Origin: Deltaproteobacteria bacterium
GTDB lineage: Bacteria > Desulfobacterota > Syntrophobacteria > BM002
Length of the DNA: 32,141 nucleotides
Direction of reading: 5' to 3'
Assembly (NCBI GenBank): GCA_020347625.1
Contig: CP070735.1
Location: 1,013,075 to 1,045,215 of the forward strand
The translations under genes were made by a program, and so were the position numbers. This document shows positions 22,321 to 22,932 of this stretch, one piece after another. How positions within the stretch are numbered: the first letter of the stretch is position 1; each line of letters starts with the position of its first letter. The notes under the pieces were generated by a model. That model was not told the origin of the DNA, did not search any database, and saw only the letters and a list, made by a program, of their open reading frames with translations.

Positions 22321-22540
22321 GATTATTATTCAAGGTGTTTACATGGGTTCTGATTCTTGCAGACGGTTGACTCTGGAGAGCTGACCGGCAACGATTAAAG
22401 TTTTGTTAGCTCTATGTTTTCCATCCTCTTATAGAACAAGAATAACAGGAAAATTCCAGTCATGCCGTAAAAAAGATACGTCTATTACCTTTGCTTAGCA
22501 TGCTGTCGATACTAGATTTCGATATTCTCTTTTATTTTTT
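22321..22540. other. Gene-free gap upstream of the yqgE-like gene
   Basis: 220 bp with no credible gene or strong hairpin before the element that starts at 22541. It may hold the promoter of the minus-strand YqgE/AlgH gene. Confidence 0.35.
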
Positions 22541-22775
22541 AACCACGGAGACACGGAGAGCACAGAGTCCGTTTTCTATTTTGCCCGATCGGGAGACGGC
22601 GATCGGGCAAAAGATCGCAGCCCTCCGGGCACGATCTAGCAACCGCATGTCTTCATATCATCGGTTGGCGCCGACTAAAGAGCATTCGCCGCAGGCGGAG
22701 GCTCTTTTCCCTGGCCGTCGTCTCCCGGCCAGGGAAAAATCACCCCTCTCTGTGTCCTCTGTGCCTCTGTGGTGC
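22541..22775. repeat. Nested inverted element with five hairpins and complementary loops
   Basis: Outer arms ACCACGGAGACACGGAG... (22541-22569) and ...CCTCTGTGCCTCTGTGGTG (22744-22774) are imperfect inverted repeats of an 8-bp-like word. Inside are five stems. H1: 12 bp, 22579-22590 with 22601-22612. H2: AGATCG (22612-22617) with CGATCT (22632-22637), enclosing GCCC/GGGC. H3: CAACCG with CGGTTG, 22640-22645 and 22662-22667. H4: GAGC/GCTC enclosing CGCC/GGCG, 22680-22704. H5: 12 bp, 22705-22716 with 22727-22738. The loop of H1 (GGGAGACGGC) and the loop of H5 (GTCGTCTCCC) are fully complementary if one G-U is allowed. An overlapping 99-codon frame is not a gene. 22776-22932 holds nothing else. 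Confidence 0.85.
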
Positions 22776-22932
22776 CTGCCCTATTTTTAATGTGGAGCAA
22801 AGTAAGTAATCGGAAATATATTATGCCTTGAGTTTCTCTTCAGGAGAAAATAGAGGGAATACTGTCTACTGACATTAAAAAGATATCCAAGGCTACCGCA
22901 AGTGGTCTGGTGGTTGATAGTTCAGATACCCA

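Follow-up and report, generated by a model that had tools for sequence, protein, structure and literature searches.

The window, by which we mean the whole stretch of 32,141 nt analysed here (positions 1013075–1045215 of a 3.22 Mb genome that is 87.5% complete), contains an intergenic element with a DUF179/AlgH-like gene on one side and a DUF3784 gene on the other. Direct reading of the sequence places two hairpins, H1 and H5, between terminal inverted repeats beginning ACCACGGAG, and the remaining parts are collected in Table 1. No conserved gene was recognised inside the window element, which is overlapped by a mechanical 99-aa TTG ORF (22491–22790). Repeat finding located both hairpins where a preliminary description of this DNA had placed them, with 13-nt stems that are 100% complementary (22579–22591/22600–22612 and 22705–22717/22726–22738), and a 36-nt inverted pair relates H1 to H5. 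The hairpin plan given in that description holds for the TTTT and AAAA flanks and for the paired stem, but its 8-bp stem and 10-nt loop become a stem of 13 bp, once TTTT/AAAA and the closing C-G are included, and an unpaired loop of 8 nt. The 10-nt motif GGGAGACGRC is likewise present, with one closing pair counted within it (GGAGACGG and TCGTCTCC are the unpaired letters).

Table 1 Features of the window element and related loci (window positions, except in the last row)
Feature	Position	Strand	Basis or remark
Left outer arm of the larger repeated unit	22478–22541	+	own copy aligns with positions 2–71 of the outer-arm query
Left terminal inverted repeat ACCACGGAGACACGGAGAGCACAGAG, 9-nt units	22542–22567	+	sequence; kept in copies
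Hairpin H1, 13-bp stem, loop GGAGACGG	22579–22612	+	repeat finding, covariance model, covariation
Conserved loop of H1, GGAGACGG	22592–22599	+	sequence
Inner hairpin H2 (GATCG..GCCC..GGGC..CGATC)	22613–22636	+	sequence, folding; conserved among own-genome copies
Weak central hairpin AACCG...CGGTT	22641–22666	+	folding; most variable part among copies
Inner hairpin H4 (AGAGC..CGCC..GGCG..GCTCT)	22679–22704	+	sequence, folding
Hairpin H5, H1 motif inverted, different 13-bp stem	22705–22738	-	repeat finding, covariance model, covariation
Conserved loop of H5, TCGTCTCC on +, GGAGACGA on -	22718–22725	-	sequence
Right terminal inverted repeat CTCTGTGTCCTCTGTGCCTCTGTGGT	22748–22773	-	sequence; copy alignment
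Right outer arm (ATGTGGAGCAAAGTAAGTAATCG)	22774–22813	+	copy alignment
Own-genome TIGR02436 loci	G000:C1:2237168, 1831545, 929623, 1545156		

A covariance model built from relatives recovered exactly 22579–22612 (plus strand, 54.0 bits, E 4e-9) and 22705–22738 (minus strand, 54.9 bits, E 3e-9), with E-values that are not fully independent, as some training sequences are congeners with the same stems. Its other matches were confined to these two hairpins read from the complementary strand. When the 235-nt element was folded and compared with dinucleotide shuffles, the z-score was −8.9 for DNA and −10.1 for RNA, and 0 of 200 shuffles folded as well for DNA. Intrinsic terminators were rejected on inspection, as on either strand each stem has the T run before it and the A run after it, which is the wrong order. 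A search of Rfam returned no match at gathering thresholds and nothing credible at E ≤ 1, the best weak match having an E of 0.2.

The covariation of the stems was examined in GTDB contigs, which were scanned with a pattern that left the stems free but insisted on TTTT, AAAA and the CG-loop-CG core; these columns are therefore conserved by construction and the variable stem columns are not. The outcome was two-peaked, with chance matches that have few pairs and a large group of perfect stems of many sequences, mostly from Desulfobacterota; matches without a neighbouring terminus also split into two groups. We picked 38 distinct hairpins blind to pairing, with a 9-nt-repeat terminus within 110 nt as the sole criterion; of the 11 positions that lie outside the fixed core, 10 or 11 are paired in every hairpin. 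In their alignment 97.6% of cells are paired, and both sides have changed in 8 of the 13 base pairs. Double-change cells number 126, compared with 35 in shuffles, and the covariation score is 0.634, compared with 0.167 for shuffled and at most 0.148 for slid alignments. The loop CG-GGAGAYGN-CG is constant across the set, and T4/A4 stands at the foot of nearly all the hairpins, which were found with a pattern that demanded TTTT..AAAA nearby. Since pairing and a fixed loop are maintained while the stems change, what is conserved is the loop and the ability to fold, not the stem sequence, in agreement with the earlier reading that pairing is kept as the sequence varies. The case made there had been staked on finding other copies with compensatory stem changes and on the loop match surviving in relatives; many such copies exist, and the loop motif is kept.

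The suggestion that the two loops form a kissing complex fares less well. The loops of H1 and H5 are complementary by geometry, the two hairpins being one motif repeated in inverted orientation, and within one element the loops are near-identical when read in the same frame. The differences among distinct loop types comprise 11 G-U and 12 A-C/C-A changes, plus others, in counts that are nearly symmetric by design, as both strands of most elements entered the count. A-C/C-A changes between the paired loops are therefore as frequent as G-U, which gives a kissing complex no specific support, and we rejected kissing as a selected feature. A recognised motif present in duplicate accounts for these differences no less well than would selection for a loop-loop helix; a kissing contact between the H1 and H5 loops is, as such, possible.

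The element matches 12 places in its own genome, ten of which were aligned, and fragments also occur. The near-full copies are 80–100% identical to the window copy, and runs of N occur at copies E8 and E9. The outer flanks of the aligned copies are largely unrelated, and the hairpins are near-identical wherever sequence is present. Five genomes of the same genus (G003, G004, G006, G007 and G008) hold many copies, in numbers that are to be read as at least those counted, with four candidates scored per genome; most of the full-length ones are 79–90% identical. A genome search gave no match to the element in the congeners G001, G005 and G009. Most of the relatives are draft MAGs. With respect to the window copy itself, the genes flanking it are too diverged in the congeners to tell presence from absence.

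In most copies the ACCAC element is surrounded by conserved outer arms (window 22478–22541 and 22774–22813), and in the copy alignment the sister copies of the left arm start AAAACGCCTATT...TTAGCTCCGCAT. Since most copies carry these arms along, it may be the larger unit that was amplified. The copy alignments thereby bear out the nesting that had been proposed, in that the window element sits within further arms. The bounds 22541–22775 given before do contain the element, but the repeated unit runs on, with arms of about 64 nt on the left and about 40 nt on the right. The arms were also considered as an insertion target that should have left empty copies, and this was rejected, as no contiguous joined-arm match was found in the own or congener genomes. 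Four loci in G001, G002 and G003 (L314–L317) share the outer ends AAAACGCCTATTAACTTAGCTCCGCA ... TGCGGAGCTAAATACATATGCGTTT, with the ACCAC interior absent and another interior in its place; elements of this type are possibly the host that once received the ACCAC element as an insertion. No target-site duplication was visible by eye at the own copies or at the presence/absence site described below, an absence that is not decisive, since some mobile-element families make none. A cleanly excised form was not seen either.

Nested and internally deleted copies occur among L307–L326. In L308 (G006:C1:3029705–3030329) a deletion starts in the loop of H1 and ends in that of H5 (GCCCGATCGGG|TCTCCCGGCCAGGG), as though the loops had met. 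In L307, L309, L318 and L325, the ACCAC termini surround another inverted array, with AGATTGC...-like or CGAAAT...-like units, and the hairpins are absent; palindromes are nested three deep in these copies. Four own-genome copies, E6 (L014), E7 (L015), E8 (L016) and E10 (L018), carry an extra GC-rich palindrome at one point within the H5 loop. Loop palindromes (for example AGCCCGCC...GGCGGGC) are also present in G004b (L094) and in the H1 loop of G008d (L092), and the termini of L312 and L326 contain a similar one, so the hairpin loops may be insertion hot spots. A hairpin pair of the Desulfobacterota type was also observed on a contig labelled as a Puia sp. MAG of the Bacteroidota (L180), which reflects either horizontal transfer or a binning error.

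The genome that holds the window has one GxxExxY gene, which is truncated and followed by CTCCGTGTTCTCTGTG. The sequence beside this gene resembles the element termini, and we therefore compared the GxxExxY loci of the class. Inverted matches were scored between the 220-nt flanks of each locus, with a threshold set at the 99th percentile of the scores from 491 control windows. Inverted short-repeat arms above this threshold, which about 1% of control windows exceed, surround GxxExxY at 25 of 30 class loci and at 23 of 28 new phylum loci, the latter being an independent phylum-wide draw. The two arms agree in type within a locus and the types differ between loci (CACGGAG, CACGAAG, CGCAGAG, CACAAAG). 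Hairpins with a GGGAG-type loop flank the gene on one or both sides at L125, L126, L128, L130, L149, L206 and L356, and at L348 another loop, TGAGAGG, stands on both sides with different stems. Hairpins of at least 9 bp on both sides were found at 8 of 57 GxxExxY loci and at 0 of 238 controls. Most GxxExxY loci are without such a pair, and subterminal loop-conserved hairpins are a minority feature, present in the window copy.

In G037 and G040, copies with no detected gene align with the GxxExxY element L126 over terminus, hairpin and adjacent filler (79–91% over 72–101 columns), and at L356 a cargo-less stretch with both hairpins adjoins a GxxExxY gene, with the CGCAGAG terminus type common to both. 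Window-type copies have termini and hairpins in common with GxxExxY elements in other genera, but an exact match to the GCCCGATC/CCCTGGCC stems was found in none of the congener GxxExxY elements examined, nor was any intact element with these stems, so that the autonomous partner of the subfamily was not found. At one syntenic place a GxxExxY element is present in G005 and G006 and absent from G003 and from the own genome. L147 was rejected as a second such site, as relatives retain right-end remnants, so that the difference there reflects decay and not an empty site. Among plasmids, tblastn found GxxExxY in 8 records and no near-identical occupied/empty plasmid pair. In Sphingomonas parapaucimobilis (NZ_CP155749.1, L330) the gene lies with tight inverted repeats between fabD and fabG, in a fatty-acid operon, and in a Bacteroides record it lies between radA and another gene.

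The gene inside full versions of the window-type element belongs to the GxxExxY/PDDEXK_3 family (TIGR04256, PF13366), which consists of small single-domain proteins. Residues E30, D70, E80, K82, Q94 and Y98 are invariant, and we take them to form a PD-(D/E)XK pattern with a QxxxY motif. The AlphaFold2 model has a pLDDT of 94.9, and the closest solved folds found by Foldseek are SSO0001 (4ic1), a Cas4, and an archaeal Holliday-junction resolvase (2wiw), with modest similarity (best E 3e-3, TM 0.50). GxxExxY is thus predicted to be a compact PD-(D/E)XK nuclease with a Cas4/Hjc-like fold. In the open-access sources searched, GxxExxY/PDDEXK_3 occurs as a protein family name only, with no role, element description or experiment, and nothing relevant to the terminus sequences was found; the mobile-element family is apparently undescribed so far.

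These elements follow a common plan, in which inverted arrays of 9-nt repeats form the ends, subterminal hairpins have a conserved loop and a free stem, and a gene or filler lies between. The window copy has inverted arms of about 9-nt repeats at both ends (22542–22567 and 22748–22773), as GxxExxY elements do, and, as it contains no GxxExxY gene, we regard it as a non-autonomous derivative and not as a full member of the GxxExxY-associated elements. It is also short and gene-less, with ten aligned copies of 235–270 bp at different loci, as is expected of a MITE-like element. The window element probably represents a single copy of a scattered mobile DNA element, MITE-like and non-autonomous, which measures about 235 bp, lies here within a unit of about 340 bp and derives from the GxxExxY mobile-element family. 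Judged from the shared termini and hairpins, a kinship with GxxExxY elements is well supported, and we infer that GxxExxY would mobilise the element as single-stranded DNA, with the hairpins as recognition sites. In such a mechanism a single strand of the element would fold, and a GxxExxY-type nuclease supplied in trans would recognise the conserved loop, which a hairpin presents at either end of the element, and cut at or near the 9-nt terminal repeats, so that the element is excised or copied. GxxExxY could itself be the passenger of something else.

Several known systems resemble parts of this plan. Bacterial MITEs are also short, gene-less, dispersed and nested, with terminal inverted repeats, whereas the window element has no identified DDE transposase parent and no observed target-site duplication. 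The ends of IS200/IS605 elements both carry subterminal hairpins, which are recognised on one strand by the Y1 transposase, but the window hairpins form an inverted pair, and long inverted repeats make up the termini. REPINs are the closest known analogue in logic and Coxiella-type rRNA intervening sequences the closest in architecture. REPIN/REP-RAYT systems (PMC3116915, PMC3733652) consist of paired inverted palindromes with a spacer, are intergenic, non-autonomous and dispersed, show compensatory changes (PMC3116915) and are proposed to fold as a single strand. The two palindromes of the window element could accordingly depend on a Y1/HUH transposase (RAYT) encoded elsewhere in the genome that moves them in single-stranded form, with GxxExxY an unrelated passenger of similar palindromes, which we consider unlikely: one end of most REPs bears a GTAG or CGTC tag that is left unpaired (PMC3733652), whereas here the foot is T4/A4 without that tag, the conserved bases lie in the loop, the termini are long arrays of 9-nt repeats, and the shared hairpins and termini lead to GxxExxY genes, with a PD-(D/E)XK gene in place of a Y1 transposase.

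The 23S rRNA intervening sequence with its S23p ORF (PMC4990558) is alike in size and architecture, being a small selfish element with terminal inverted repeats that form a stem around one small ORF, and with adjoining short tandem repeats. An RNA-level selfish element of this kind, transcribed with an operon, cut in its terminal stem by RNase III and passing through an RNA or cDNA intermediate, seems improbable here. GxxExxY genes are mostly co-oriented with their neighbours (39 of 48 upstream and 46 of 52 downstream, as between fabD and fabG), but this is close to the local background (20 of 25 control neighbours), and co-orientation was set aside as evidence for an RNA mechanism. The intervening sequence differs further in lying inside rRNA, in encoding a four-helix bundle and in its heptameric rather than 9-nt units, with no loop-conserved hairpin pair reported, whereas the window copy is intergenic and has no S23p gene inside. 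The enzyme encoded by GxxExxY elements has a predicted PD-(D/E)XK fold, and such folds usually act on DNA. As the two hairpins carry the conserved loop in opposite senses, the arrangement suits symmetric DNA ends better than one RNA. A structured regulatory or non-coding RNA with kissing H1 and H5 loops could draw on the strong fold, the complementarity of the loops on one strand and the selection for foldability. That reading is very unlikely, given the dispersed copies in unrelated surroundings, the Rfam result, the loop differences described above and the large insertion in one loop of some copies. A protein-binding cruciform with a host function in chromosome organisation or supercoiling would suit a palindromic, intergenic sequence in several copies, but we hold it to be scarcely credible, as the element is patchy among congeners (with no match in three of them), includes nested and internally deleted copies, and has parts in common with GxxExxY elements. 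Of the three options in the preliminary description, a folded-DNA mobile element is thus the best; the structured RNA drew no match at Rfam gathering thresholds.

The repeated occurrence of the widespread GxxExxY family between matching inverted repeats, together with loop-conserved, stem-covarying hairpins and gene-less relatives, assigns it a role that can be tested, that of the enzyme behind a minimal mobile element. If true, a lone PD-(D/E)XK nuclease acting with folded ends would be a form of mobility unlike the DDE, HUH, tyrosine and serine systems. More speculatively, and with rather less confidence than for the window copy itself, GxxExxY elements might constitute a new class of mobile DNA in several bacterial phyla, defined by a lone Cas4/Hjc-like nuclease gene, inverted 9-nt arrays, hairpin ends recognised by their loop, and cargo-less derivatives. 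S23p elements with inverted 7-nt arrays might then be a sister class, and the 23S rRNA intervening sequences its rRNA-inserted members. The S23p/four-helix-bundle genes (TIGR02436, class loci L267–L296) are also found between inverted short tandem repeats, above the control 99th percentile at 23 of 30 loci, and heptameric repeats precede the S23p ORF in the Coxiella 23S rRNA intervening sequence (PMC4990558). Taken together, the occurrence of S23p genes between period-7 repeats and the Coxiella heptamers suggest that the intervening sequences of rRNA may belong, as one particular case, to a broader class of intergenic elements, a parallel that opens a way to the long-standing question of their nature and movement. 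The repeats at the S23p loci have mostly a period of 7 and not 9 (14 of the 19 with a clear period).
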